Shown in pieces: positions 6,596 to 37,667 of a DNA stretch of 64,000 nucleotides. The stretch is from NCBI RefSeq assembly GCF_000381545.1, contig NZ_KB906677.1, positions 1-64,000 of the forward strand. Reading direction: 5' to 3'. A program made the translations under genes and the position numbers. Each line of letters begins with the position of its first letter. Positions within the stretch are counted from its first letter, which is position 1. This DNA comes from Rhodonellum psychrophilum GCM71 = DSM 17998. GTDB lineage: Bacteria > Bacteroidota > Bacteroidia > Cytophagales > Cyclobacteriaceae. The notes below the pieces were generated by a model. It was given only the letters and a program-made list of their open reading frames with translations. It was not told the origin of the DNA and did not search any database.

Positions 6596-9500
6596 TCAAA
6601 TCGGCACCTGCATCTCGATTATATGTTCCTTTCCATCATCTTCCAAAACTATTGAAGCACCCAATCCTTTTTGATCATCCATTTTCCACCAAGATTCGGT
6701 TTCCGCCGCTGTCTGGAAAACAGTGATCCGGTAGGTGGAACTTCCCTTTCGGTAAATGACGGATACCGATGGCCAAGACAAAGGGAAACAAGGATTGAAG
6801 CTCAGTACATTGCCCTGGATTTTCATCCCGATAAGAGAACCTGTGATAAATTGATACATCCATCCCGAGGAACCCGTGTACCAGGTCCACCCTCCCCTAC
6901 CTTCGTGGGATTCATTGGCATAGACATCCGCTGCCATCACATAAGGTTCTACTTTATAAACCTTGACTTTATCGGCATCAGAGGCATGACCGATGGGTTG
7001 AACCATACTGAATAGTTCATAGACTTTTTCTCTTTGGCCCAGTGCGGCAAAGGCCATCAGCGTCCAGATGGCGGCATGGGAATATTGCCCTCCATTTTCC
7101 CTTACACCCGGGACATATCCTTTGATATATCCTGGGTTCGGTCCTTCTTTGTCAAATGGTGGATCCAGCAATTGGATGAGTTGGAGGTCTTTTCTGACCA
7201 GATGTTTTTCCAAGGAATCCATGGCTGTCAAGATTCTCTGACTGTCACCGGCGCCGGACAAGACCGCCCAGCTTTGGGAAATGGCATCAATGCGACAAGC
7301 CACATTTTGTTTGGAACCCAAAGGGCTGCCATCATCAAAAAAGGCCCGAAGATACCACTCCCCATCCCATCCCGATGCTTCAATTTTCGCTTTCAGGGTC
7401 TTGGCTGTTGTCCTGCAGGTGTCGGCAAATAGAGAATCTCCATAACCTGATGCAATGGCTTCATATCTACTCAATACATCATATAGGAAAAAAGCAAGCC
7501 ATACGCTTTCTCCCTGGCCTTTGTGCCCCACCTGATCCATTCCATCATTCCAGTCTCCAGAACCTATCAGGGGAAGGCCGTGGCTACCAAACCGAAGAGA
7601 TTGGTTAATGGCGCGGACACCATGTTCATACAGACTTGCCTTCAGGTTGCTTGTCGAGGGAAGGTCGTAAATGGAATCTTCACCTTCTGCCAACAATCTG
7701 CCTTCCAGAAAACCAACCTGTTCATCGAGTATTTGGGAATCACCTGTATCTGTGATGTATCTGGAAAGCACATAAGGCAACCAAAGCAAATCATCCGAAC
7801 AGGTGGTACGAACGCCTCTTCCTTCTGGTGGATGCCACCAATGCTGTACATCTCCTTCCACAAACTGACGGGAGGCACTCAGAAGGATTTGCTCGCGAGC
7901 CAACATGGGTTTGGAATGAAGCAGTGCCAATACGTCCTGCAACTGGTCCCTGAAACCAAATGCACCTCCGGATTGATAGAATCCGCTTCTGGCAAATATC
8001 CTGCAGGCAATCGTTTGGTAAGTCAGCCAACCATTGGTCAATATATCCAAGGCAGGGTCAGGCGTGGTCACTTGCACCGTACTGACCATTTCTTCCCAAT
8101 ATTCCTTTACTGCCTGAAGGGAAGTCTTCACAGATTCCTGGTCAGCAAACTTTTGGAGAAGCGCTTCTACTTCGGCTGGATTATTTCCGGTCCCTAGTTG
8201 AAAGATTATCTCTTTTTCTTCCCCTTCAAGCAAGTCGAACTTGACCTGTAATGCTGCACAGGGATCCAACCCTGCGCCTAGGCTACCAGAAAGTTTGGTC
8301 CGGTGAAGGGCTTGGGGATCTTCAAGATTTCTGTTTCTTCCGATAAATTCTCCGCGATCGCCGGTGAAACATCTTTCAGCTCCTTCCACTTTGAAAAAGC
8401 ATATCTTCTCAGCAAATGCGGTATTGTACCTGTTCCTGAACAGAAGCGCCCCATTGGGCTGATCCCATTCGGAAAAAACATGCATGTTTGTTTTGGAGCG
8501 AAGATCCCCCAAAATCATTTCCATGAAACCTACAGCTGAAATTTTTCGATGCGTTCCCGATTGGTTTTTGATTTTCAGAACAATGAATTTTACAGGAAGG
8601 TCCTTATCCACAAATACACACATTTCCGAATGAAGACCCATTTCTGAATGCTCAAAAGTGGAATATCCAAAACCGTGTGTCGTGATATAGGGTGTTTTCC
8701 CCGCTCTTGGAAAGGGAGAAGGTGACCAGAAATGACCTGTTTTTTCATCCCGGAGGTAAAAGGCCTCCCCTCCTGTATCGGAGACAGGATCGTTGTGCCA
8801 TGGGGTAATGCGGTATTCGTGCGCATTGATTGACCAGGTATACGCAGACCCATTTTGAGAAATGACCGAACCAAAACCAGGGTTAGCAATCACATTTACC
8901 CATGGGGCTGGTGTGGTTTTCACCTTGTCTGTTAGGATTTTATAGGATTTTCCATCTGGAGAGAATCCACCCGTCCCATTAAAAAACAACAAGTCGCGAG
9001 GCAGTACCATTGGCGTTAGGTCCCCAAATTCAGGCATGGAAGCCGCTTCCAATAGTGGCGGAAGTGCTTTGGGTACAATCTCTCTGTTCACTTGTTCGGA
9101 CAATGTTCCGTTGCTATCGTGAATGATGATGCGGGCAACACTTTCGAAAAGGACTCTGTCTTCCGGAGAAAGCTGATCAGCGGATTTGACGAAGATATTT
9201 CCAGGTTTGTTATTGGTTTCATGTCTGAAAGACTCCATGGTGATGAGACCAAGGATTTGTTCCTGAAGAACCTTTCTATAAGCTCCATGGTCCTCATTCC
9301 AAATGACCAAATCCACTGCCAAGCCCTTGAGACGCCAATAGCCATGAGCTTGGACCATTTGCTTGACAAGCTCCATGTTTTCGGGATTTTGAATATGCAA
9401 CAAAACGATAGGGATATCTCCGGAGACCGAATGGCTCCAAAGCCCGGACTGTCCCCTGGAATTGGCAAGGATGACCGATGGATCCGCCCGAAGCGAAGGA

Positions 9501-12500
9501 TGGGGATAAATCAAAGAAGCGGCCAAGCGGTCATAAAGATGCGCATCTGACTCGGTGGCATTGATCTGTCTCAAAAGCACCTGATTATGGGTCCAAGAAA
9601 GTTCAAAGGCACGCTTTTTTAGATGACGGTCACGGTACTTGTGCATCAGCGCCTCACAGCTTTCCCTCGTATCGCTGATCCCATAGATCAAGTCTACCGT
9701 TCCGGTTTGTTGGGGTTTGATGCTGATTTTTAAACGGATTGAGACAATTGGATCCAAGACAGACCCCTGCTTCCCCGACAACCTGTTCACCTTCAGGGCT
9801 TGCGGATGGGCCAGGGTGTTTCCCCTTCCAATAAACTCCATCCGATCGGTTTCGTATGAAACCTCTTCCAATTCAGCTCCATGGGTCTCCATCAGGTGAA
9901 ACATCCACGGGGGAATTTCTCCTTCCGACCGGGGTCTGCGTGTACATATTACCGCTTTGTCTTCCGGAAGTATTTCTGTTTGGACAAAAAGATTGCTGAA
10001 TGCAGGATGCGCTTCATCAGAAGCCTGGCTGGCCAGCACAATTTCGGCGTAGCTCGTCACTTCCAAGATCTTGGTGAAGTTGGTCTTGTTGGTGATTCTG
10101 ATCCTTCTCATTTCGGTATCATCCTCAGGAGAAATGACAATTTCAGTTTTGGTTTCCACTCCATAATCCTGTCTGTAAAACTCAGCATGACCCTGGGAAA
10201 AAACCGCTTGATACACTTTCGCTGGATGCATGGTGGGTTGATAGGTATTTGACCAGAAAACACCACTGCTGATATCCTTGATATAGCAGAAAATACCCCT
10301 ATTGTCTTGGGTAGTATCTTCCCGCCAACGCGTCACGACGATATCTTTCCATCGACTGTAACCTCCACCGGAATTGGTGACCATTACTTGATAATTTCCA
10401 TTGCTGAGCAATTGTACTTCAGGCATTTGGGTGTTTGGTGTCTGGATGATTCGGGCCTTGACCCCATCATCCGTTACTGAAGCATCCATCAGGTCGGCAG
10501 TGTGGGCGAAAAACAAAGTCGTCCTCGGTATCCGCTCCTGAAGCAATAAAATCGTCGCCTGAAAGCGGAGTTCAGAAACGAATCTCTGCTGCATGGGCTG
10601 ATCCAGAAGCAAATAAGCCAGGGACAAGAGCCCCATTCCCTGATGATGTACCATATAGGAGCGTACAATGGCATTTTTCTCTCCCCTAGGCAGACGGCTT
10701 ACGGTATAATCTATGGCTTCATAAAAACCAAATTCCCCTTCAAAACCTTCTTTGTAAAGCAATTCAAGATTTTGGTAGGCTTTTTTGGGTGAAACCATCA
10801 AAGCCATCATCGTTGCATACGGGGCGATCACCAAATCCTCTTCCAGACCACGCTTAAGACCGATTCCAGGAACGCCAAAGGCATGATATTGGTAATTCAA
10901 ACTGGCATCTACCTGATTGTACCCGGATTCGGAAATTCCCCAAGGCACCCCCCGTTGCGCACCGTATTCAATTTGTCTTTTGACTGTGGCTTTGTTGGTT
11001 TGAAAAAGCAGAGTGTTTTCATAAACTGGCATCACCAATTGGGGCATCAGGTATTCAAACATTGACCCACTCCAAGAAAGTAAAATCGGACCTCCACCCG
11101 AATCGGTCAACAAGCGCCCGAGGGCAAACCAACTTTCCTGTGGCAACTTGCCTTGGGCAATGGCCACAAAAATCCCCAACCGTGCCTCTGAAGCCAGCAG
11201 GTCATAATTTCCACTGTCCTTTTTTCGTTCTTCGACATTGTAACCAATACTGAGGAGACTTGTGGATTTGTCAAAAAGAAAGTCGTAGTCAACCTCAGAC
11301 AGTTGCTCGCAGTATTCGGCAAGTTGGGTGATCAAAAGGTTCCTTTTGCTTGCCATAATGCCTCCCTGTGCCAAGGCTTCCCTTACTTGGGCCAACCATT
11401 CCTTTTGCTCTTGACTATTTTGCGCCATGGCATATTCATCCAGTATTTGGGAATAGGTTTCTGATGCGGTTTGGATGGCGTGTAAAGTTGGGTTGTCGAT
11501 TATTGGCGCAAGAAGTCCAAATTGTTCTGGAACTGGGGTCAATTCCAACCAAGGCGCCAGAAGAAGCCAATCTTCCCGTGTATTTTTGATTTGGGTCAAC
11601 AACCTTTTGATCCACCTTTGGTATTCAGTTTCAATTCCCGGATTTTGGGTTTCTCCCTGTTCAATAAAAGAAACCAAATCATCTAGCAGGTTTTTCAGTT
11701 TTCTCAGAGAAAGGGTTTCTGTAGCCAATGCTGTTTCCAGCATGCCCATGATTTTTGCAGAAATTTCATTTTGTTTTCCAACAGAAAAGTCCATTACAAT
11801 CCCGGCGGTAGTTCTGAGTCCTTCGATTACCCGCTTGCCCACAATCGGGTCTTCGGGCAAAGCCAATAGCCCCTGCCGAAAAGTAAGCAAGTGCCCGATC
11901 AGATTGCCACTGTCCACTGTTGAAATATATTTGGGCTGTAAAGTGGTCAAGGAAACAGTGTCATACCAATTGTAAAAATGACCTTTGTACCTTTCAAGTT
12001 CCAGCATCGAGGACATCGTCTGCCTGGATCTTTTGACCAGTTCACCGCTCCCAATGTATCCAAAATCATACGCGGATAGATTTGCCAACAAAGCCAGCCC
12101 CATGTTCGTGGGTGAAGTTCTGTGGGCGATTTTGGCAACAGGTTCTTCCTGGAAATTATCCGGAGGAAGGAAATTGTCAGGCTCGGCAACAAACTGCTGA
12201 AAAAACGACCAGGTTTTTCTGGCTGTTTTGTGCAGAAAAAAGAGCTCATCTTCAGGTAATCGCACATTTTTCTCAGATTTGGGTTTGCCAAGACGCCATG
12301 CAAGAGCAGGAGCCATAAGCCATAACAATAGAATCGGAGAAGCCACCAGTAGGGATATAAATTGGCTGTTGTAAACCAAAATCCCTATCAAAACCAGTGA
12401 CAAAAGTGGAGGGAAAATCATTTTCCCGTATATCTGTAGAAGCTTATTTTCGGTTTTCCTTGCCGTATTGGCTGAAGGCGTCCATTCCAGTAATTTTTTT

Positions 12501-15295
12501 CCGGAAATGAAAATCCTCCAAATGGTCCGAAAGACTGCATCTGCAAAAACGAAAGCCTCATAGGGCAAAACCGCAAGTCCAAAAACAAACCTGATCAAGA
12601 AATCCCTGACCACACCACCCACTTCCGAAAGGTGTGCAGTTGAATTCAGCTCTATGGGTTTATGGAGCAATTGCCAGCCTGCGGCCATCATCAATGGCAA
12701 CAATACTATCAAAGTCACGGCTGCAGTCCAGAACCAAGAAAAAGGCAAAATGGTCCAACCCATCAGTAAAACCAACAGCAAACAAAGAGGCACCAAGCTC
12801 CTTCTCAGGTTGTCAAACAATTTCCATTTGGAAAGGCTGGAAAGCGGATTGCTTTTCCATTGGCCATCTGCATCCTTTACAAAAGGAAAAATCCAGGCTG
12901 CAATCTGCCAATCCCCCCTTGTCCACCTGTGGTAACGTTTGATGTCGGCATGGTACTGGGAGGGATTTTCCTCATAAAGCAGCACATCGCTAAGCAAGCC
13001 CGAACGCACATAACAGCCTTCCAGCAAATCATGGCTCAATATCCTGTTTTCAGGAAACACCCCGTTCAATCCCTGTTCAAATACATCCACATCATAGATT
13101 CCTTTTCCGATAAAGGATCCTTCCCCAAAAAGATCTTGGTACACATCGGAGGAAACTCTGGTATAGGGATCTATGCCGGTGACATCTCCCTGCATTCGGG
13201 AATATAAGGATACTGCTGATTTAGAAATGGCCGCAGCCACTCTGGGCTGAAGAATACCATATCCCTCTGTCACTATCTGTCTTTTTGGATCAAAAACAGG
13301 ATGGTTGAGCGGATGTGCCATGGTGGCAATAAATTTCCAGACCGTTTCCCTGGGCAATTGTGTGTCTGAATCAAGCGTGATCACATATTTTACACGTGAC
13401 AATATCCTTTGATTTCCAGAGATCAAGGAAAACTCATTTTTATCTTTCCCTCTTAAAAGGGCGTTCAAAGCCGATAATTTCCCCCTTTTCCTTTCATAGC
13501 CCATCCACTTTCCTTCCCGTTCATTCCAGGTTCTTGGACGGTGGAAAAGAAAAAATATATCCTCTTCGTTTTGATATTTCTGATTCAGTACTTCTATTTT
13601 TTCACTGACAAGTTCGAGAAAACCATCATCTTCCGGCATTAATTCAGAGCCCGCGTCCATAAAGTCGGTCAATAAACCATAATGCACATTTTTCTCCTTG
13701 TTGGCCAAAAACCTGATCTCCAAGGCCTCAACGAGTTCTTCGATATAAGCCTTACTCGAAAGCATTGTCGGAATGACCACCAGGGATCTGAATTCTGTGG
13801 GAATACCCCTTGAGAAATCCATTCTGGGCAGCATTTTGGGATTAACACTGATCGTTGCGATCCAATTCACCAATGAAACCGCAAGCTGTGCCGCACCTGA
13901 AACCGCAATCAATGCCAGCACTGCCAAGATCGGCCATTCGAAATTACTGTAGCGATTGACCAAATGGAGCATGCCATAAGAGGCAATTCCGGTCAGTGCA
14001 GCAATGGAGAAAAAATAAAGAAACATGGGTATTTTCCCGGAAAATCTTTTGAATTTTTGGGTGAAGGTGTACCTTCTTTCACAGATTTTTTCTGTCTGTT
14101 CCAACCCTTTGTCCACCAAGAAATAACCCACGTGGGACATCCTGGCCTCAATACCTTGGCTAATCGCATTTTCGTGTGCCAAATCCACCGCCTTTTGGGC
14201 AACTTCAGTTTCGGAAAATGGACTGTATTTGGCAATGGCTTCTACAACATGCCTGTACCTGTCCCTGGTCGCAAAATCCATGAAAGGATAGGTGCCGGAA
14301 ACATCCTGTCTCAGGATTTCCTCCACGCTGCTGAGTGTTTCTACAAATTCACGCCAATCATTGGCTCCCAAAAATCTCAGGGTCCCGATGCTGTTTCTTA
14401 CCGAAACTTGGTTGGCTGCCTGCTTTTGGTTTTCCTTGCCGACAAGTTCATTGCTGGAATAGCCCATTTCGACAAGCTTTTGCTCCATCCATGTCAGAGG
14501 CAATGCCAGAGCGGGTCCCTTCCCTTGAAGTTTCCTCACCATGCCAGCTACAAAAGGGCTGACCAAAACAGGATTTGACCTTGCCATGTCGGCAAGATCC
14601 AAAACCAAATTTCCCGGACTTTCCTTCACCGTGGCAATCATCCTGTCTGCCCAATAATCGGCAAAGTTATGATCCACCATATCCAGTGCGATCTTATTGG
14701 CAATCCTGCGTAAATTTTCGATCACGGCCAAGCGAAGCATGATCGGAATGGCCCAGAGTTCTCCAAGAGTAAGGAGGCTTACGGTCTGATAGGCGGAGAT
14801 GAAATTGCTCAAGCTCTTTACATCCACCCGACCGTCACTGTGGGAAATAATTTCCAACACGATGTCGTACACACGTGGCAATCCTGAAGACAATCCATTC
14901 CCCAAACTTGGGAGGGTTTCACTGTATCCTTTTGGTAAATGGTCTCTTGCAATGACCACCTGCTCTTCTATCAGGTAAAAATTGTCCAGCAGCCATTCGG
15001 CGGCAGGCGTAATGGTTTTGCCCAGCCGGATGCTTTCCACCAATAAGTTTCGGGCCTCGACCAGTGTCGTTTCATTCTCATCCAAGCGTTTGAGCAACTT
15101 GTCTGCCGGTTTTTCAACCTGAAGTTTATGGGATTTGGCCAGTACTTTACCATGGGCATAGATTTGGTCCATACTGAACAATTCAGAGCGGAAAGGCTCT
15201 TTTGTTTCAGCAATCATCGCCGCATTCCCTCCTTGAAAATAGACCCTCCAATGGGACAGTATATCAAAGACAGAACTAGTTGTTACCTTCATCAT
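6596..15295 (-). CDS. ndvB: cyclic beta-1,2-glucan synthase, NdvB type (GT84 + glycoamylase-like + GH94)
   Basis: A 2,899-residue protein, the usual size of cyclic beta-1,2-glucan synthases, which make, cyclise and trim beta-1,2-glucan at the inner membrane. Order of parts: soluble N-terminal region (1-420); membrane helices near 424-480; glycosyltransferase 84-type domain with the motif TLDSDTQLP near 640; helices near 832-880, 900-925 and 957-1000; glycoamylase-like (cyclisation, GH189-type) domain about 1020-1560; two GH94 N-terminal beta-sandwich-like regions around 1600-1880 and 2110-2300; and a GH94 phosphorylase-like catalytic region about 2400-2850 containing FRDQLQD near 2445 and GSGDWNDGMDQ near 2580. 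The start is one of two consecutive ATGs. It stands alone as a transcription unit with a terminator at 6517-6554. The domain reading is strong; whether the product is cyclic or linear is not visible from sequence. Confidence 0.9.
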   Translation of the reverse strand: MMKVTTSSVFDILSHWRVYFQGGNAAMIAETKEPFRSELFSMDQIYAHGKVLAKSHKLQVEKPADKLLKRLDENETTLVEARNLLVESIRLGKTITPAAEWLLDNFYLIEEQVVIARDHLPKGYSETLPSLGNGLSSGLPRVYDIVLEIISHSDGRVDVKSLSNFISAYQTVSLLTLGELWAIPIMLRLAVIENLRRIANKIALDMVDHNFADYWADRMIATVKESPGNLVLDLADMARSNPVLVSPFVAGMVRKLQGKGPALALPLTWMEQKLVEMGYSSNELVGKENQKQAANQVSVRNSIGTLRFLGANDWREFVETLSSVEEILRQDVSGTYPFMDFATRDRYRHVVEAIAKYSPFSETEVAQKAVDLAHENAISQGIEARMSHVGYFLVDKGLEQTEKICERRYTFTQKFKRFSGKIPMFLYFFSIAALTGIASYGMLHLVNRYSNFEWPILAVLALIAVSGAAQLAVSLVNWIATISVNPKMLPRMDFSRGIPTEFRSLVVIPTMLSSKAYIEELVEALEIRFLANKEKNVHYGLLTDFMDAGSELMPEDDGFLELVSEKIEVLNQKYQNEEDIFFLFHRPRTWNEREGKWMGYERKRGKLSALNALLRGKDKNEFSLISGNQRILSRVKYVITLDSDTQLPRETVWKFIATMAHPLNHPVFDPKRQIVTEGYGILQPRVAAAISKSAVSLYSRMQGDVTGIDPYTRVSSDVYQDLFGEGSFIGKGIYDVDVFEQGLNGVFPENRILSHDLLEGCYVRSGLLSDVLLYEENPSQYHADIKRYHRWTRGDWQIAAWIFPFVKDADGQWKSNPLSSLSKWKLFDNLRRSLVPLCLLLVLLMGWTILPFSWFWTAAVTLIVLLPLMMAAGWQLLHKPIELNSTAHLSEVGGVVRDFLIRFVFGLAVLPYEAFVFADAVFRTIWRIFISGKKLLEWTPSANTARKTENKLLQIYGKMIFPPLLSLVLIGILVYNSQFISLLVASPILLLWLMAPALAWRLGKPKSEKNVRLPEDELFFLHKTARKTWSFFQQFVAEPDNFLPPDNFQEEPVAKIAHRTSPTNMGLALLANLSAYDFGYIGSGELVKRSRQTMSSMLELERYKGHFYNWYDTVSLTTLQPKYISTVDSGNLIGHLLTFRQGLLALPEDPIVGKRVIEGLRTTAGIVMDFSVGKQNEISAKIMGMLETALATETLSLRKLKNLLDDLVSFIEQGETQNPGIETEYQRWIKRLLTQIKNTREDWLLLAPWLELTPVPEQFGLLAPIIDNPTLHAIQTASETYSQILDEYAMAQNSQEQKEWLAQVREALAQGGIMASKRNLLITQLAEYCEQLSEVDYDFLFDKSTSLLSIGYNVEERKKDSGNYDLLASEARLGIFVAIAQGKLPQESWFALGRLLTDSGGGPILLSWSGSMFEYLMPQLVMPVYENTLLFQTNKATVKRQIEYGAQRGVPWGISESGYNQVDASLNYQYHAFGVPGIGLKRGLEEDLVIAPYATMMALMVSPKKAYQNLELLYKEGFEGEFGFYEAIDYTVSRLPRGEKNAIVRSYMVHHQGMGLLSLAYLLLDQPMQQRFVSELRFQATILLLQERIPRTTLFFAHTADLMDASVTDDGVKARIIQTPNTQMPEVQLLSNGNYQVMVTNSGGGYSRWKDIVVTRWREDTTQDNRGIFCYIKDISSGVFWSNTYQPTMHPAKVYQAVFSQGHAEFYRQDYGVETKTEIVISPEDDTEMRRIRITNKTNFTKILEVTSYAEIVLASQASDEAHPAFSNLFVQTEILPEDKAVICTRRPRSEGEIPPWMFHLMETHGAELEEVSYETDRMEFIGRGNTLAHPQALKVNRLSGKQGSVLDPIVSIRLKISIKPQQTGTVDLIYGISDTRESCEALMHKYRDRHLKKRAFELSWTHNQVLLRQINATESDAHLYDRLAASLIYPHPSLRADPSVILANSRGQSGLWSHSVSGDIPIVLLHIQNPENMELVKQMVQAHGYWRLKGLAVDLVIWNEDHGAYRKVLQEQILGLITMESFRHETNNKPGNIFVKSADQLSPEDRVLFESVARIIIHDSNGTLSEQVNREIVPKALPPLLEAASMPEFGDLTPMVLPRDLLFFNGTGGFSPDGKSYKILTDKVKTTPAPWVNVIANPGFGSVISQNGSAYTWSINAHEYRITPWHNDPVSDTGGEAFYLRDEKTGHFWSPSPFPRAGKTPYITTHGFGYSTFEHSEMGLHSEMCVFVDKDLPVKFIVLKIKNQSGTHRKISAVGFMEMILGDLRSKTNMHVFSEWDQPNGALLFRNRYNTAFAEKICFFKVEGAERCFTGDRGEFIGRNRNLEDPQALHRTKLSGSLGAGLDPCAALQVKFDLLEGEEKEIIFQLGTGNNPAEVEALLQKFADQESVKTSLQAVKEYWEEMVSTVQVTTPDPALDILTNGWLTYQTIACRIFARSGFYQSGGAFGFRDQLQDVLALLHSKPMLAREQILLSASRQFVEGDVQHWWHPPEGRGVRTTCSDDLLWLPYVLSRYITDTGDSQILDEQVGFLEGRLLAEGEDSIYDLPSTSNLKASLYEHGVRAINQSLRFGSHGLPLIGSGDWNDGMDQVGHKGQGESVWLAFFLYDVLSRYEAIASGYGDSLFADTCRTTAKTLKAKIEASGWDGEWYLRAFFDDGSPLGSKQNVACRIDAISQSWAVLSGAGDSQRILTAMDSLEKHLVRKDLQLIQLLDPPFDKEGPNPGYIKGYVPGVRENGGQYSHAAIWTLMAFAALGQREKVYELFSMVQPIGHASDADKVKVYKVEPYVMAADVYANESHEGRGGWTWYTGSSGWMYQFITGSLIGMKIQGNVLSFNPCFPLSWPSVSVIYRKGSSTYRITVFQTAAETESWWKMDDQKGLGASIVLEDDGKEHIIEMQVPI

Positions 15296-15644: not shown

Positions 15645-17822
15645 ATGAAGAAACTTACCGTTTTGACCATACTATATTTTAGTTTGGTCGCTATACTTTT
15701 CGGTCAGAAGATAAATGACAAATACAAGCTGCCGATCCGATTGGCGAGTTCCCCCATTGTCATCGATGGCGTGTTGGATGAGCAGGCATGGTTGGATGCT
15801 TCGGTCGCAAGCGAATTTTTCATGATTACCCCGATGGACACCAGTTTTGCCCATGTCAAAACCGATGTGAGAATGACCTATGATGCGGACAACCTCTATT
15901 TGGTCGTCGTCAATCACCATGGCATGGAGGGGCCTTATATGGTAGAATCCCTCCGCAGGGATTTTTCATTTGGCAAGAATGACAATTTTCTCCTCTTTAT
16001 GGATCCCTTCGATGACCAAACCAATGGATTTTCTTTCGGCGCCAATGCAGCCGGTGCCCAATGGGATGGCATCATGTTCGAAGGCGGAAAAATCGACTTG
16101 AGCTGGGACAACAAATGGGAATCCACCGTGAGGAACTACCCCGACAAGTGGGTTTTTGAGGCGTCCATTCCATTCAAGTCCATTCGTTATAAAAAAGGAA
16201 TTACCGAATGGGGAATCAATTTCAGCCGGATGGATCTCAAAACAACCGAAAAATCAAGTTGGGCGCCGGTTCCAAGGCAGTTTCCCTCAGCATCTCTGGC
16301 TTATACGGGTACTTTGATCTGGGACAATCCTCCGCCTCAAGTAGGTTCCAATATTTCCCTGATCCCCTATGCGATGGGGGGAGTAACCAAAAACATCTCC
16401 GAAGGTGGCCAAGAAGTATTCAAGAGGGATGTTGGCTTGGATGCTAAGATCGCCTTGAGCTCTTCCCTCAATCTGGATTTGACGGTGAACCCTGATTTCT
16501 CACAGGTGGAAGTGGACAGACAAGTGACCAATCTGGACCGATTTGAATTGTTCTTTCCCGAAAGGAGACAGTTCTTTCTGGAAAACGGAGATTTGTTTGC
16601 CAATTTTGGCTACGAGAGCATCCGTCCATTTTTCTCGAGGAGAATTGGCTTGAATGCACCCATCAATGTTGGGGCAAGGCTAAGTGGTAAAATCAACAAA
16701 GATTGGAGGATCGGCGCCATGAACATGCAAACCGGTGAGGTGGATGAATCCGGATTGCCTGCCCAAAATTTCAGTGTTTTGGCCCTCCAAAGAAGGGTCT
16801 TCTCCAGGTCCAATATCGGCGTCATCTTTGTAAACAAAGAATCCCTAAACTATCGCCCTGACCCCAGCGAAGACAAACCCGTTTATTCCAGATTCAACAG
16901 AAATGTGGGCTTGGAGTACAATCTGGCTTCCTCCAACAACCTTTGGACAGGAAAGGCCTTGGTCCTAAAATCCTACAGCCCCGGCCAAACCGGAGAAAGC
17001 ATGGTCCATGCGGCAAACCTGCGGTATAGCAGCGGAAACTTGACTTGGAATTGGCAGCATGAATACGTGTCCGAAAACTACACTGCGGAAGTTGGCTACG
17101 TGCCAAGAAACGGATATTACAAAATCAACCCCAGCATCGGGTACCTATTTTTCCCCAAAAGTAAAAAAATCCTCAGCCACGGTCCAGAATTCAACACCAA
17201 GTTCTTTTTCAATACGGATATGAAGGAAACCGACAACGAAAGTTACCTGTTGTATCGGGTGAGGTTCAGAAGCCAAAGTGTTTTCAGCGCATGGACCGCA
17301 CACGATTACGTCCAACTCCAAAGGCCATTTGATCCCACGAATTATAGCGGGGATACCTTGGCCACTGGAACCCAACACAAATGGAATTCCTGGGGAACGG
17401 AATATACATCAAAGCCCCAGAGCATTTTCACCTATGCCTTTTCGACACGGATGGGAGGATATTATGCAGACGGAGATCGATACAATGTGGCTGCGGAACT
17501 CGGCTACAGGTTCCAGCCCTTTTTCAGTCTTACCCTAAATGCCAACTATAATGAAATCCATTTGCCAGAGACATGGGGAAAAACCAGGTTTTGGTTGGTG
17601 GGGCCGAGACTGGATGTAACGATGACCAACAAGGTCTTTTTCACGGCATTTGTCCAATACAACGAGCAGATCAAAAACATCAACTTGAATACCCGCTTTC
17701 AATGGCGATTCAAACCCGCCTCCGATCTCTTTTTGGTTTACACAGACAACTACCTTCCAGCACCTTTCTATGTAAAGAACCGGGCATTGGCATTGAAATT
17801 CACCTATTGGTGGAATGTCTAG
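15645..17822 (+). CDS. DUF5916 / CBM9-like domain outer-membrane protein
   Basis: A 725-residue secreted protein with an N-terminal signal peptide (MKKLTVLTILYFSLVAILFG). Residues about 25-230 form a family-9-like carbohydrate-binding domain (sandwich with PIVIDGVLDEQAWLDA and YDADNLYLVVV). The rest is a beta-rich DUF5916 region that looks like an outer-membrane barrel and contains the hallmark VNPDFSQVEVDRQVTNLDRFELFFPERRQFFLE region near residues 285-320. The C-terminus ends in aromatic residues (FTYWWNV), as barrels do. The family is common in Bacteroidota and its function is not established. A paralogue lies at 59547-61748. It appears to be a single-gene unit. Confidence 0.85.
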   Translation: MKKLTVLTILYFSLVAILFGQKINDKYKLPIRLASSPIVIDGVLDEQAWLDASVASEFFMITPMDTSFAHVKTDVRMTYDADNLYLVVVNHHGMEGPYMVESLRRDFSFGKNDNFLLFMDPFDDQTNGFSFGANAAGAQWDGIMFEGGKIDLSWDNKWESTVRNYPDKWVFEASIPFKSIRYKKGITEWGINFSRMDLKTTEKSSWAPVPRQFPSASLAYTGTLIWDNPPPQVGSNISLIPYAMGGVTKNISEGGQEVFKRDVGLDAKIALSSSLNLDLTVNPDFSQVEVDRQVTNLDRFELFFPERRQFFLENGDLFANFGYESIRPFFSRRIGLNAPINVGARLSGKINKDWRIGAMNMQTGEVDESGLPAQNFSVLALQRRVFSRSNIGVIFVNKESLNYRPDPSEDKPVYSRFNRNVGLEYNLASSNNLWTGKALVLKSYSPGQTGESMVHAANLRYSSGNLTWNWQHEYVSENYTAEVGYVPRNGYYKINPSIGYLFFPKSKKILSHGPEFNTKFFFNTDMKETDNESYLLYRVRFRSQSVFSAWTAHDYVQLQRPFDPTNYSGDTLATGTQHKWNSWGTEYTSKPQSIFTYAFSTRMGGYYADGDRYNVAAELGYRFQPFFSLTLNANYNEIHLPETWGKTRFWLVGPRLDVTMTNKVFFTAFVQYNEQIKNINLNTRFQWRFKPASDLFLVYTDNYLPAPFYVKNRALALKFTYWWNV

Positions 17823-17959: not shown

Positions 17960-19414
17960 ATGCAAAAACCACGGAGTGTTTCGCAGAGAACGCAAAGAAA
18001 AAACAAATTCTTCCAGATCTTCCGAAAACCAACAGATTCTAAAAACCACAGTAAAAACCTTTGCGACCTTCCCGAGACACTTGGCGCACTCTGCGTTAAA
18101 ATAATTTCTCGCAAAGTCCGCAGAGTTTTTCGCAGAGACCGCAAAGAAAAAAATACATCCTCCCAAATCTTCCGAAAACCAACAGATTTTCAAAACTACC
18201 AAAAAACCTTTGCGACCTTCCCGAGACACTTGGCGCACTCTGCGTTAAAATAATTTCTCGCAAAGTCCGCAGAGTTTTTCGCAGAGACCGCAAAGAAAAA
18301 AATACATCCTCCCAAATCTTCCGAAAACCAACAGATTTTCAAAACTACCAAAAAACCTTTGCGACCTTCCCGAGACACTTGGCGCCCTCTGCGTTAAAAC
18401 AATCTCTCGCAAAGTCCGCAGAGTTTTTCGCGGAGAACACAAAGAAAAAAATTACATCCTCCCAAATCTTCCGAAATCCAACAGATTTTTAAAAACAAAA
18501 AAACCTTTGCGACCTTCCCGAGACACTTGGCACCCTCTGCGTTAAAACAATCTCTCGCAAAGCCCGCAGAGTTTTTCGCGGAGAACGCAAAGAAAAAAAT
18601 ACATCCTCCCAAATCTTCCGAAAACCAACAGATTTTCAAAACTACCAAAAAACCTTTGCGACCTTCCCGAGACACTTGGCGCACTCTGGGTTAAAATAAT
18701 TTCTCGCAAAGTCCGCAGAGTTTTTCGCAGAGACCGCAAAGAAAAAAATACATCCTCCCAAATCTTCCGAAAACCAACCGATTTTTAAAACTACCAAAAA
18801 ACCTTTGCCGCCTTCCCGAGACACTTGGCGCAATCTGCGTTAAAATAATTTCTCTCAAAGTCCGTAGAGTTTTTCGCGGAGAACGCAAAGAAAAAAATAC
18901 ATCCTCCCAAATCTTCCGAAAACCAACCGATTTTTAAAAACAAAAAAACCTTTGCGACCTTCCAGAGACACTTGGCGCCCTCTGCGTTAAAACAACCTCT
19001 CGCAGAGACCGCAAAAAAAACAATGGGTTCGAACCCCTCCCTCAATTCAAAACCTGAGATTAGGTCCAAAAAACCTTTGCGTCCTTCGAGTAAAACTTAG
19101 CGCCCTCTGTGTTGAAAATTCAGCAAAAACAGGTTTTTCGCAAAGCACGCAACGTGTTTCGCAGAGAACGCAAAGAAAATAACAACACATCCAAACCCCT
19201 CCCTCAAATCCAAACCTGAGATCAGGTCCAAAAAACCTTTGCGTCCTTCGCGTGAAACTTAGCGCCCTTTGCGTTGAAATTCCGCAGAATGAAGGTTTTC
19301 ACAAAGCAAGAAGCATGTTTCGCAAAGACCGCAAAAAAAACAATGGTTTCGAACCCTGATTTTAAAATCAAAAAAACCTTTGCGTACTCCGTGAGAAACT
19401 TACCTCTTTGGGTG
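17960..19414. repeat. tandem array of about ten palindromic 149-bp repeat units
   Basis: CTTTGCG left arms start at 18059, 18208, 18357, 18505, 18654, 18803, 18950, 19075, 19237 and 19378, giving spacings of 149,149,148,149,149,147,125,162,141. Each full unit has four heptamers facing one way (CTTTGCG, CTTCCCG, CTTGGCG, CTCTGCG, separated by 2, 5 and 2 nt), a 14-nt A/T spacer, then four facing back (CGCAAAG, CGCAGAG, CGCAGAG, CGCAAAG with the same 2/5/2 spacing). A linker of about 61 bp with 'cctcccaaatcttccgaaa' follows. The first piece (about 17968-18000) is a right arm only and the last is a decayed left arm. Units 1-7 are near-identical; units 8-10 have drifted and carry a different linker. 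Confidence 0.9.
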
Positions 19415-19428
19415 AAAACAGTTTCAGA

Positions 19429-20169
19429 CTAAATGGCCTTATTCCTTACGTAGATCAATTTAAACCTTCCTTTCTGGTTTTCCCTTTTTTCGATTTCGAA
19501 TTTGTTGATGGCGCTGATCAAGGGTGTTAATTTTTGGAAACCAAAGTTTCGCGCGTCAAAATTGGGTTGCTTTTTTTGAAGCAGATTGCCCACGTCTCCC
19601 ATGAAAGCCCATCCTTCCTCATCTGCCAAATCCGAAATCGTACTGGCGATCAATCGAATCAATTTCGGATTGATCTTGTCCACTTGAGGTCTCGGAACGC
19701 TCTTTTCTTTTGGATCATCCTGATCCTCACTTTGTTGGGTCAGGATTTCAAGATAGATGAATTTGTCGCAGGCAACGAAGAATGGTTCAGGCGTTTTCTT
19801 TTCCCCGATTCCGATGACCAACATCCCCGCTTCTCTCAGACGTGTCGCCAACTTGGTGAAATCACTGTCGCTGGATACCAAACAGAATCCGTCTACCCTT
19901 TCTGAATAGAGGATATCCATGGCGTCAATGATCATCGCCGAATCTGTTGCATTTTTGCCTGTGGTATAGCTGTACTGCTGAATGGGGCTGATGGCATTTT
20001 CAAGCAGGACATTTTTCCATTTCCCAAGTTGCGGCTTTGTCCAATCCCCGTAAATCCGCTTAATGGTGGGGTTGCCGTATTTGGCGATTTCCTCCATCAT
20101 TTCTTTCACTTGGGTGGCGGGAACGTTATCGGCATCTATCAACACGGCAATTTTAAGATCAGTCTGCAT
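19429..20169 (-). CDS. NYN-domain (PIN-like) protein with C-terminal LOTUS/OST-HTH domain
   Basis: A 246-residue protein. Residues 5-145 form a NYN/PIN-like nuclease fold: IAVLIDADNVPA (Asp12, Asp14), TDSAMIIDAMDILY and SSDSDFTKLATRLREAG supply the conserved acidic residues of this metal-dependent RNase class. Residues about 170-245 (ISDLADEEGWAFMGDVGNLLQ ... FGFQKLTPLISAINKFE, split here for brevity) form an OST-HTH/LOTUS RNA-binding domain. The combination is widespread in bacteria and predicted to act on RNA; substrates are generally unknown. Its stop codon lies 15 bp from the end of the 149-bp repeat array, which would fall in its 3' untranslated RNA if transcription reads on. Confidence 0.85.
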   Translation of the reverse strand: MQTDLKIAVLIDADNVPATQVKEMMEEIAKYGNPTIKRIYGDWTKPQLGKWKNVLLENAISPIQQYSYTTGKNATDSAMIIDAMDILYSERVDGFCLVSSDSDFTKLATRLREAGMLVIGIGEKKTPEPFFVACDKFIYLEILTQQSEDQDDPKEKSVPRPQVDKINPKLIRLIASTISDLADEEGWAFMGDVGNLLQKKQPNFDARNFGFQKLTPLISAINKFEIEKRENQKGRFKLIYVRNKAI

Positions 20170-24788: not shown

Positions 24789-25226
24789 AACCCGAAATAT
24801 ACTTTCCTCTTCCGAATAGAGCTTGAAACTGCAGGAATTCAGACCCTCTTTAGGCCAACTGGTGCTTATATGGTGAAGTCAAAAATTAAAAAAAGACTGA
24901 TGATGAATCAATTTCAGGGTGGAATTGAACCCGAAAAATGCATTAAATTTCCAAATAGAGCTTCGAACTGCAAGAAATCAGTCCCTCTTTAGACCAACTG
25001 GAGCTTATATGGTGAAGTCAGAAATTACAAAAAGACTGATGATGAATCAATTTCAGGGTGGAATTGAACCCGAAAAATGCATTAAATTTCCGAATAGGGC
25101 TTGAAACTGCAGGAAATCAGCCCCTCTTTAGACCAACTGGAGCTTATATGGTGAAGTCAGAAATTACAAAAAAGACTGATGGTGAATCAATTTCAGCGTG
25201 AAATGGAGAATGCATAATACAGGTTT
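24789..25226. repeat. tandem version of the 170-bp element (three units, 139-bp period), copy B
   Basis: AACCCGAAA starts at 24789, 24928 and 25067 (exactly 139 bp apart) and the last unit closes with TGCATAATACAGGTTT at 25226. Units share GAGCTT-AACTGCA, GACCAACTGG, ATATGGTGAAGTCA and GACTGATGATGAATCA. Units 2 and 3 are almost identical, which implies recent duplication. Confidence 0.8.
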
Positions 25227-35070: not shown

Positions 35071-35378
35071 AACCATGAGGTTTCCCTTAGAGCAATGCCT
35101 GCAAGAAAATCAGGCTTTTTGAAAAATAAGGCATCACACCTATGTGGTGAAGTCAAAAAAATTAACCAAATATATCATTATCAGGAATTTACATCCTTAA
35201 ATTGAATTGATAATGCAAATCCAGGTTTAAAGAAAAACGGATAGCACCGATCGGTGAAGTCAAAATTTCGAAGAACCGACTGATTCCTAAGTAATTTGAG
35301 GATCGAGTAGAAATATAAATGCATAAAAGGGGTTAAAACCCGGCATAAAACGAGTTAAAGCCCGAGAAAAACGGGTTA
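35071..35378. repeat. 170-bp intergenic element, composite copy D
   Basis: Two degraded copies side by side. One runs from about 35071 to 35227 (GCAAGAAAATCAGGC, TGTGGTGAAGTCA, ending TAATGCAAATCCAGGTTT). The other runs from about 35233 to 35334 (CGGTGAAGTCA ... AAATGCATAAAAGGGGTT). Extra end fragments (AACCCGGCATAAAACGAGTT, ACGGGTT) follow up to 35378. The final GGGTT overlaps the stop codon of tamL at 35376-35378. Confidence 0.7.
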
Positions 35379-37667
35379 AAAAGGATAGCCGATGGCAAAA
35401 TTGAACACCAGGTTTTCCCTTCTCCAATTTCGGTCCCGGAAATCGAAGGAATTTCCCCAGCGCTCGTTTTCGGGCAATGATGGAACCCTAAGGGGTGTGG
35501 CGAGATCAAAGCGGATCACAAAAAACTCGATATCAAACCGCAAGCCAAACCCTGTGCCTACTGCAAGTTCGTTCCACCATTTCGAGGTGAATTTACCCCC
35601 TGGAAGGGCTTCGTTTTCGTTCATCAACCAGACGTTCCCGGCATCCATAAAAAACGCCCCTTTCAATATTGACACAATCGGGAAGCGGTACTCGATATTT
35701 CCCTCCAACCTGATGTCTCCTGCCTGGTCGAAAAAAGAGCCCAAATTGAATTCTTCGGGACGGTAAGTGCCCGGACCAATGGACCTGATCCGGAATGCGC
35801 GGACGCTGTTTGGTCCCCCAGAGAAAAACTGTTTGACGAAGGGTAAGGAATTGGAATTGCCATAAGGAATCCCCACTCCTCCAAAAAGTCTGGTTGCGAT
35901 GGTGTGCTTTTGATTCATCCTGAGATAATATCTAAAATCAACATCGCCCCGTGAATACTGCGCATATCTTAGACCCAAAAAAGTGTTCGGGTCTCCACCA
36001 AAAACCCTGTTGGCCAGATTAATTCCATTTCCAGCCAAATCAACTGTGCTCGCCACAAAAATCCCATGGGTCCTGAATTTGTCTGACAACTTGTTATAAT
36101 TGAACGTGTAATTTATTCCCGCAATAAACTGCTGGTCAAAACTGCTGCGCAAAAAGGGATTTTTGTTCAAAATTTCCTCAAATTCATCCGATGTTCTGGA
36201 CAAGTTCACCACATTGATACTGATCGGATTGATTTCATGGTAAACAAAACGGTTTGCATTCCAAAAATAACCATAGTTACCGGAGAATGTATTTAACTTG
36301 TACAAGCCTCCCCTGCTGAGATATTCGGTACCCAAGCTGATTTTGGTTTTCGGCACCGAATAGCTGAAACGTTCTTTGATTGGGATAAAAAAGACCACCC
36401 TTGGATAGATCAAGTCTGCTTTCAGGCCCAACTCAATAGAATTCAAACCCGCTCTTTCCCCACTTGAAATCTGCGTTTCGTAGCCAAATTTCCCTGTTAT
36501 GTTCAGTGATTCCCCACCCAGAAAAAGATTTCTGTTGCGATAGGTAACGTTTAATGCCGGACCCGCGAAATTATTGGATTTGGATACCGCCTGAAGCTCT
36601 ACCCTTACCGAGCGCTTGGTCTGCGGCGAAAGGTAAATGCTTGCTTCAAGTGATCCCTGATCTCCCCGGTTTTCCACTTCGGTGTAACGAAGGTTGACAA
36701 ATCTATAATTGCCAATAGAGCTCAAACGGTTACTGGTGAGCCTTGATTTTTCTGGACTGAAATAGTCTGCGCTGTCTATCAGGATGTATTCATCCAGGAG
36801 AGCTGGCTTGAACACCACTTTCCCTTGGATAAATTCCTTTCCCTCCAGGAAAACGGTATCCAATTTTTCGCGTTCATCATCAATGGAATAGTTAGGGAAA
36901 ACCTTGATTCTGTCAATTTTGTAGGGAATGATGCCGGAAGTCGGTACACTTTTCTTGAACCTGAGAAAAAGGTCAAATTTCCTTAGGGTATCGCTGATAT
37001 TGGTGTCCGCCTCAAATACGAGATAATCCTGATTGAAATTATAATACCCTTTGTTCTTCAATGCTCCATCCAACCTCAAACGCTCCTCTTGAAGTGTGGC
37101 AAGATCAAACCTCATTCCTTCCTTGATCTGAGTATCCTCCAACAAAGCGATAATTTGCTTGTCAATTTCCAGAGAATCCCGGTCTATCTTAAAATTGACC
37201 AATGTATAGGGCGCTGAAATCTTCACCGTATAATCCACCTTGGCGAATTTTTCCTTTCGGGTCACATCTGAATTGGTGACGGAATAAAAAAAACCTCTGT
37301 TTTCCAAACGGTTCAAAATCAATTCTTCGGTTCTTTGTGGATCAACAGCACTAAAGTAAACCGGTTCCTGCCCCAGCTTTTTTTTCAAAAACCGATTGAT
37401 AAAACCAGGCTTCTCCTTGGACCCTTTATAATGCGCCCAGAGCCCCACGTACATTCCCAATATCTTTTTGTTTGGAATGGGCCTGATCAAACCCTCTACC
37501 TCGGACTCAATTGCCTTAAGGTCGGAAACCCTTTCTTTCGTTTCCAACTTCAGTTCGGCACCTTCATAGAGAAATTCATCCTCAGGGATATATTTTTTTA
37601 CACTACATCCTATAAATAGACTGTTCAAAAAAATCAAAAAGACAATATATATGTTCCTAATCTTCAT
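35376..37667 (-). CDS. tamL: TamL-type lipoprotein, BamA/TamA-family outer-membrane protein
   Basis: About 763 residues from the ATG at 37667, chosen because AAGGAGG lies directly upstream. The longer frame would put 26 charged residues before the signal peptide. The lipobox NSLFIGCSVKKYIP near residues 14-22 makes it a lipoprotein, as in the Bacteroidota TamL variant of TamA. POTRA-like domains run to about residue 370, then a BamA-type 16-strand barrel containing FSGGPNSVRAFRIRSIGPGT and ending FNFAIGYPF. It overlaps the end of the tamB-like gene by 11 bp. With that partner it probably moves proteins or lipids to the outer membrane. Confidence 0.88.
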   Translation of the reverse strand: MKIRNIYIVFLIFLNSLFIGCSVKKYIPEDEFLYEGAELKLETKERVSDLKAIESEVEGLIRPIPNKKILGMYVGLWAHYKGSKEKPGFINRFLKKKLGQEPVYFSAVDPQRTEELILNRLENRGFFYSVTNSDVTRKEKFAKVDYTVKISAPYTLVNFKIDRDSLEIDKQIIALLEDTQIKEGMRFDLATLQEERLRLDGALKNKGYYNFNQDYLVFEADTNISDTLRKFDLFLRFKKSVPTSGIIPYKIDRIKVFPNYSIDDEREKLDTVFLEGKEFIQGKVVFKPALLDEYILIDSADYFSPEKSRLTSNRLSSIGNYRFVNLRYTEVENRGDQGSLEASIYLSPQTKRSVRVELQAVSKSNNFAGPALNVTYRNRNLFLGGESLNITGKFGYETQISSGERAGLNSIELGLKADLIYPRVVFFIPIKERFSYSVPKTKISLGTEYLSRGGLYKLNTFSGNYGYFWNANRFVYHEINPISINVVNLSRTSDEFEEILNKNPFLRSSFDQQFIAGINYTFNYNKLSDKFRTHGIFVASTVDLAGNGINLANRVFGGDPNTFLGLRYAQYSRGDVDFRYYLRMNQKHTIATRLFGGVGIPYGNSNSLPFVKQFFSGGPNSVRAFRIRSIGPGTYRPEEFNLGSFFDQAGDIRLEGNIEYRFPIVSILKGAFFMDAGNVWLMNENEALPGGKFTSKWWNELAVGTGFGLRFDIEFFVIRFDLATPLRVPSLPENERWGNSFDFRDRNWRRENLVFNFAIGYPF

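Follow-up and report, generated by a model that had tools for sequence, protein, structure and literature searches.

The closest described systems are those of the repetitive extragenic palindromic (REP) sequences, in which the gene for the REP-associated tyrosine transposase (RAYT) lies between two REPs in inverted orientation, and REPs also occur in regular arrays (PMC2817692). Here we describe an array in a 64,000-nt stretch of Rhodonellum psychrophilum DNA (contig NZ_KB906677.1, positions 1 to 64,000; hereafter the window) that is REP-like in organization and has a different associated gene. The array occupies 17961-19414, where convergent genes face it with their 3′ ends from both sides, and consists of tandem units whose arms each carry four spaced heptamers. 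Inverted arms of this kind bracket genes of the GxxExxY family in many bacteria, and the array is probably a gene-less, non-autonomous and tandemly amplified derivative of such gene-carrying elements, predicted to be spread by the GxxExxY nuclease.

The GxxExxY family record (TIGR04256 / PF13366) describes the protein alone, with no repeats. A survey of the open-access literature returned no link between GxxExxY and flanking repeats, no earlier description of these gene-repeat elements, and nothing on bacterial repeats for the word CTTTGCG; subscription journals lay largely outside its scope, and a prior description is possible.

Organization of the heptamer array

Each unit of the array contains two arms. 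In unit 1, the + arm (18059-18095, + strand) carries four CTTTGCG-type heptamers with gaps of 2, 5 and 2 nt, and the − arm (18110-18146, − strand) carries four CGCAAAG-type heptamers with the same gaps. A + arm is separated from the following − arm by 14 nt and a − arm from the following + arm by 60-61 nt, giving the recurring pattern 2-5-2 / 14 / 2-5-2 / 60-61 nt in a heptamer scan. The ~61-nt linker of unit 1 lies at 18147-18207; like the array as a whole and its decayed right end, it is assigned to neither strand. Further + arms (+ strand) are located at 18208-18244, 18357-18393, 18505-18541, 18654-18690, 18803-18839 and 18950-18986, and further − arms (− strand) at 17961-17997, 18259-18295, 18408-18444, 18556-18592, 18705-18741 and 18854-18890. 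Because the array opens with a − arm (17961) and closes with a + arm (19414), the natural unit is: − arm, ~61-nt linker, + arm.

Tandem Repeats Finder reports a period of 149 over 17974-19013 (7.0 copies, 92% matches, score 1698) and a period of 162 over 19032-19340 (1.9 copies). There are about seven near-identical units of 147-149 bp, followed by two decayed units with another linker. In this decayed right end (19075-19414) the loop is 26-27 nt; its + arms lie at 19075-19111, 19237-19273 and 19378-19414 (+ strand) and its − arms at 19139-19175 and 19300-19336 (− strand).

These data bear out the first-pass annotation of this DNA, which had described a tandem 149-bp array of mirror-image heptamer sets, decaying rightward into a related version with a different linker and ending at 19414, where the last + arm stops exactly. 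Its wording that all four heptamers of an arm are CTTTGCG-like holds for the layout and is loose for the second and third heptamers of the + arm, CTTCCCG and CTTGGCG. A search for inverted repeats of at least 16 found none in the window array, since the arms are imperfect.

Heptamer arms flank GxxExxY genes across phyla

In other Bacteroidota, CGCAAAG-type heptamers were first seen just 5′ of GxxExxY genes and CTTTGCG-type heptamers just 3′. For a flank test, the motif (CTYYGYG), distance and orientation were fixed beforehand and applied to a new set of 80 GxxExxY loci, drawn from genome contigs (genome_contigs) of at least five phyla, GxxExxY-related loci being gathered by the family profile or its alignment. 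Within 150 bp of the gene and in the expected orientation, CTYYGYG occurs at 12.7/kb upstream and 13.5/kb downstream, against a background of about 0.5/kb at a distance of 1-3.5 kb. This corresponds to a ~28-fold enrichment, arranged as inverted arms. Both sides are flanked at 51 of the 80 loci and at least one side at 71. When spacing is left free, four-heptamer arms are found in 95/183 adjacent windows versus 4/299 distant ones (Fisher p 2e-43).

A separate set of 29 GxxExxY loci gave 13.8 heptamers/kb. Control genes remained at background: 0.22/kb for 30 23S_IVP genes, 0.5/kb for 13 NYN genes, and 0/kb for the Y1_Tnp genes of R. psychrophilum. De novo word counts near GxxExxY genes returned CTTTGCG, CTCTGCG, CTCTGTG and CTTTGTG, with a terminal GGTTAA. 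Loci with clear arms span Bacteroidota, Ignavibacteria, Chloroflexota, Verrucomicrobiota and Acidobacteriota, and heptamers stand on both sides of the gene in Planctomycetota. Arm spacings in other species include 2-5-2, 2-4-2 and 3-4-3, among others; the full window units use 2-5-2.

The association also holds between genomes. GxxExxY was detected in 151 of 297 sampled Bacteroidota genomes: in 36 of the 40 with at least five heptamer-pair matches versus 115 of the 257 others (p 3e-8). Genomes with the gene-carrying form also have gene-less arms scattered in their intergenic DNA.

Residues E27, D67, E77-x-K79 and Q91-x-x-x-Y95 of the protein do not vary in 13 aligned GxxExxY sequences. We take these residues to be the Cas4/RecB/lambda-exonuclease signature of PD-(D/E)XK nucleases. 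A Cas4 profile matches GxxExxY with E 1.7e-4. The best fold matches in the PDB for a model with pLDDT (predicted local distance difference test) 92.5, all of them weak, are SSO0001 (4ic1), presumably Cas4-type, and lambda exonuclease; the PDB holds no sequence relative of GxxExxY. Together, these matches support the reading of GxxExxY as a small PD-(D/E)XK nuclease, distantly Cas4-like. Strong purifying selection acts on the gene, whose ratio of nonsynonymous to synonymous substitution rates (dN/dS) is 0.04-0.09. The gene is mainly a chromosomal resident, as its occurrences elsewhere are so few: no phage record, 7 plasmids, and 1 locus among 2.9 million viral contigs.

Repeats and GxxExxY gene of the R. 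psychrophilum genome

The repeats are dispersed in this genome. A 93-bp query matches 39 places on contigs C5, C7, C16, C33, C34 and C41 of the 5.19-Mb genome, and a pattern scan added contig C2. The genome has about eight such repeat loci. The spaced-pair pattern CTTYGCGNNCTYYGCG, with one mismatch allowed, has 160 genome matches versus 4 for the reversed control pattern, far above chance. Units in the window and on C33, C34 and C41 have a common linker family, with identities of 81-100%. The 149-bp unit is confined to R. psychrophilum among the 119 genomes compared from its taxonomic family, yet occurs at several sites; the linker has short partial matches alone, in 2 of the 118 others. A linker family present at several sites and nearly absent from relatives indicates that the unit was dispersed and amplified within this lineage.

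The single GxxExxY gene of the genome, encoding 125 amino acids, lies on C33 (6433-6810) between two arrays of the window's repeat family. Its product is a full family member (TIGR04256 / PF13366, PDDEXK_3; E 2e-41), and no CRISPR-Cas genes were noticed adjoining it. Directly 3′ of the gene, within the repeat region (L041 6900-8740), is a group II intron with a reverse transcriptase/maturase, which is taken as incidental.

A RAYT/Y1 transposase was considered as the partner of the repeats and rejected: the Y1_Tnp copies of this genome are located away from the arrays and lack adjoining heptamers. Separately, array ends on C41 (L043 4100-4534) and C34 (L042 1-370) meet apparent IS3-type transposase sequence at the contig ends, perhaps one array split by an insertion sequence.

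Variation at Flavobacterium sites

Between species, the segment between the arms has been inverted, or the gene lost with the arms kept. This is seen in the gap between trpS and an acyltransferase gene, which was compared in 30 Flavobacterium species. GxxExxY lies between arms in 14 of them, in one orientation in 9 and in the other in 5, and arms without the gene are present in 4; the remainder have few heptamers, mostly on a single strand, or none. In a tree, the GxxExxY genes of the trpS site form one clade and the reversed copies a clade nested within it. The tree fits one old insertion, vertical descent, one in-place inversion, and repeated gene loss leaving arms. Heptamer type varies by species, being mostly CTTTGCG in the reversed copies and CTCTGCG in several forward ones, and the two arms of an element largely agree in type.

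Other Flavobacterium intergenic gaps hold arm pairs without the gene, and one (L210) holds a tandem array with a ~156-bp period. Two sites that could be resolved well, L258 and L266, have an arm pair in some related species and none in others.

As a separate observation, runs of a GAAACCTGAAAC-type 7-nt repeat occur in or beside gaps (L289-L292) that have heptamer arm pairs in related Flavobacterium species.

Proposed origin of the array

Taken together, the observations are that arms bracket a selected gene and that gene-less arms and arrays have been dispersed and amplified. From these we infer mobilization by the GxxExxY protein. If so, the mechanism likely involves: recognition of the heptamer arms by the protein, whether in duplex form, with sites spaced by two helical turns, or in the form of an extrudable cruciform; cleavage at the arms; repair that copies the arm pair into new intergenic sites, as is thought for RAYT with REPs; and unequal recombination, which would then multiply the tandem units. 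A broader and more tentative proposal is that GxxExxY proteins are the mobilizing Cas4/RecB-like PD-(D/E)XK nucleases of an undescribed class of prokaryotic mobile DNA, recognizing clustered spaced heptamers and spreading inverted arm pairs, which may give rise in several phyla to solo palindromes and to arrays like bacterial interspersed mosaic elements (BIMEs).

Several observations weigh against an element spread by this nuclease. The trpS element is vertically inherited over many Flavobacterium species, and active movement is therefore at best rare. Neither a target-site duplication nor an exact empty site could be delimited at the NYN site, the trpS site or six other Flavobacterium sites, where the flanks are too divergent to place exact junctions. 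Upstream of the GxxExxY gene of R. psychrophilum stands a + arm where a − arm would be usual; the arm downstream of the gene is degenerate and adjoins the group II intron. Nine of the 80 tested loci have no expected-strand heptamer within 150 bp. Lastly, two genomes (G045 and G014) contain several heptamer pairs, with few or no control matches, and no detected GxxExxY gene.

The last of these points would also be expected under reverse causality, in which the heptamer palindromes are host features, such as 3′-end elements or places where a nucleoid or regulatory protein binds, into which a parasitic GxxExxY gene homes. The position of the window array between convergent genes, the trpS arms without a gene, and the atypical placement of the R. 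psychrophilum gene, embedded in an array, are all compatible with this. However, at most loci the arms hug the gene, are inverted and often have matched spacing; the trpS-site genes have a single history; and heptamer-rich genomes without GxxExxY are rare (4/40). Reverse causality is thus unlikely.

A second possibility is plain tandem duplication: unequal recombination would have amplified a palindromic intergenic piece without the help of a dedicated protein. Units are more alike inside one array than across arrays, and unit and loop lengths alter stepwise along the array, as such duplication would produce. Against it, a linker family is common to C5, C33, C34 and C41, and the heptamers and their layout recur across phyla beside one gene family. 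As a full account, duplication is improbable; it is likely right solely for the local amplification step, which the GxxExxY-based mechanism includes.

Base pairing versus protein binding

The regularity of the array had been read in the first-pass annotation as repeated protein binding or a strongly folded RNA rather than slippage. A transcribed structural RNA under selection for base pairing (a small RNA or hairpins at mRNA ends) would draw on two results: shuffled sequences fold less well than the 88-nt palindrome (z -2.86), and some gene-carrying elements have mirror arms that agree at each position (89% for heptamers, 74% for spacers). However, the longer unit of − arm, linker and + arm is on a par with its shuffles in folding (z -0.06). 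In the arrays of this genome, pairability is 85% for heptamers and 38% for spacers, the latter at chance level. Heptamers in mirror positions resemble each other no more than other heptamer pairs do, either among 37 palindromes of this genome (p 0.97) or among 39 element-type units (p 0.76); the array units thus show no partner-specific covariation of the kind for which that annotation had proposed a check. In Rfam the array is unmatched, the region yielding a tRNA alone. An early hint of pairing from mirror similarity in the gene-carrying elements is explained by whole-arm likeness: as the spacers match along with the heptamers, arm-to-arm conversion suffices, and the match points to conversion rather than base-pair selection. 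A selected RNA fold is therefore very improbable, and the folded-RNA part of the earlier suggestion finds no support.

The other part, regular protein sites over slippage, fits the heptamers and spacing kept across species and phyla, four-heptamer a-b-a arms recurring in other species as the same annotation had asked to see. Heptamers read one by one as candidate sites would fit better than a selected hairpin, and their step of 21 bp is about two helical turns. The statement that the repeats had no known function can be sharpened: they travel with GxxExxY genes.

An ordinary miniature inverted-repeat transposable element of a DDE-transposase insertion sequence would account for inverted arms and short, scattered, gene-less intergenic copies, but is very unlikely: where full arms enclose a gene, it is time and again GxxExxY and not a DDE transposase, and no target-site duplication was seen, though the flanks are too divergent to place exact ends and not every insertion-sequence family was searched for matching ends.

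Neighbouring genes and other repeats

The genes that converge on the array provide context only. A gene for a DUF5916 protein (15645-17822, + strand) stops 138 bp ahead of the array, and a gene for a protein with NYN and OST-HTH/LOTUS domains (19429-20169, − strand) is convergent with it. Beside relatives of the latter gene the array is absent.

Elsewhere in the window, a 139-bp tandem repeat (24810-25204; 2.8 copies, 92% alike) directly follows a TonB-dependent receptor gene and has no relation to the heptamer array. A 22-bp tandem repeat, GCATAAAACGGGTTAAAACCCG, is present in 2.8 copies at 35321-35381. A 2899-amino-acid GH94/glucoamylase-type protein, like cyclic beta-glucan synthases, is encoded at 6596-15295.

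Genes for 23S_IVP / four-helix bundle proteins (L221-L250) seem to be flanked by short spaced repeats of a different type: the words CTTAG, ACTAAC and TACTAA are enriched ~10-17 fold within 150 bp of them. This hints that another gene family may be paired with its own repeats, which are perhaps akin to the published TAACTGA heptamers described below.

Comparison with known systems

If the nuclease moves the repeats, the elements would amount to a REP-like system with an enzyme of unrelated origin. GxxExxY, carried by roughly half the Bacteroidota genomes sampled and with no known function, gains a likely substrate, and the CTTTGCG/CTCTGTG-type intergenic repeats, common in Bacteroidota and unexplained until now, gain a likely origin. 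The window array has the a-b-a four-heptamer arms of the proposed GxxExxY-associated repeat class, and kin repeats stand beside the GxxExxY gene of the same genome.

Spaced TAACTGA heptamers of Beggiatoaceae, Cyanobacteria and some Bacteroidetes (PMC4679880) are likewise intergenic and patchy across phyla; unlike the repeats described here, they have no linked nuclease named in the portion of that report consulted. With Cas4 and RecB-type nucleases, GxxExxY has in common the superfamily and the conserved D, ExK and QxxxY, and it shows weak profile and fold similarity to Cas4; it differs in being a stand-alone single domain of ~125 amino acids.

The closest likeness is to REPs, BIMEs and REPINs (REP doublets forming hairpins) with their RAYTs (PMC2817692, PMC3116915, PMC8266576). 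In both cases inverted repeats stand on either side of a gene, here GxxExxY; inverted pairs without a gene are scattered through intergenic DNA; intergenic head-to-tail arrays have regular spacing and alternating orientation; and one gene copy is directly associated with an array. The parts differ. RAYT is an HUH (Y1, PF01797) transposase, whereas GxxExxY is a putative PD-(D/E)XK nuclease and the Y1_Tnp genes of R. psychrophilum lie away from the arrays. A REP repeat is a GTAG/CGTC-headed palindrome of 20-40 nt, whereas each arm here has four spaced CTYYGYG heptamers and a GGTTAA end. With neither a Y1 transposase nor a GTAG/CGTC-headed palindrome, the elements would by this comparison be REP-like in organization, yet not a REP system. 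That the array is built from the heptamers that bracket GxxExxY genes in many bacteria suggests selfish DNA of a little-known class, similar to the REPs of E. coli but unrelated to them.
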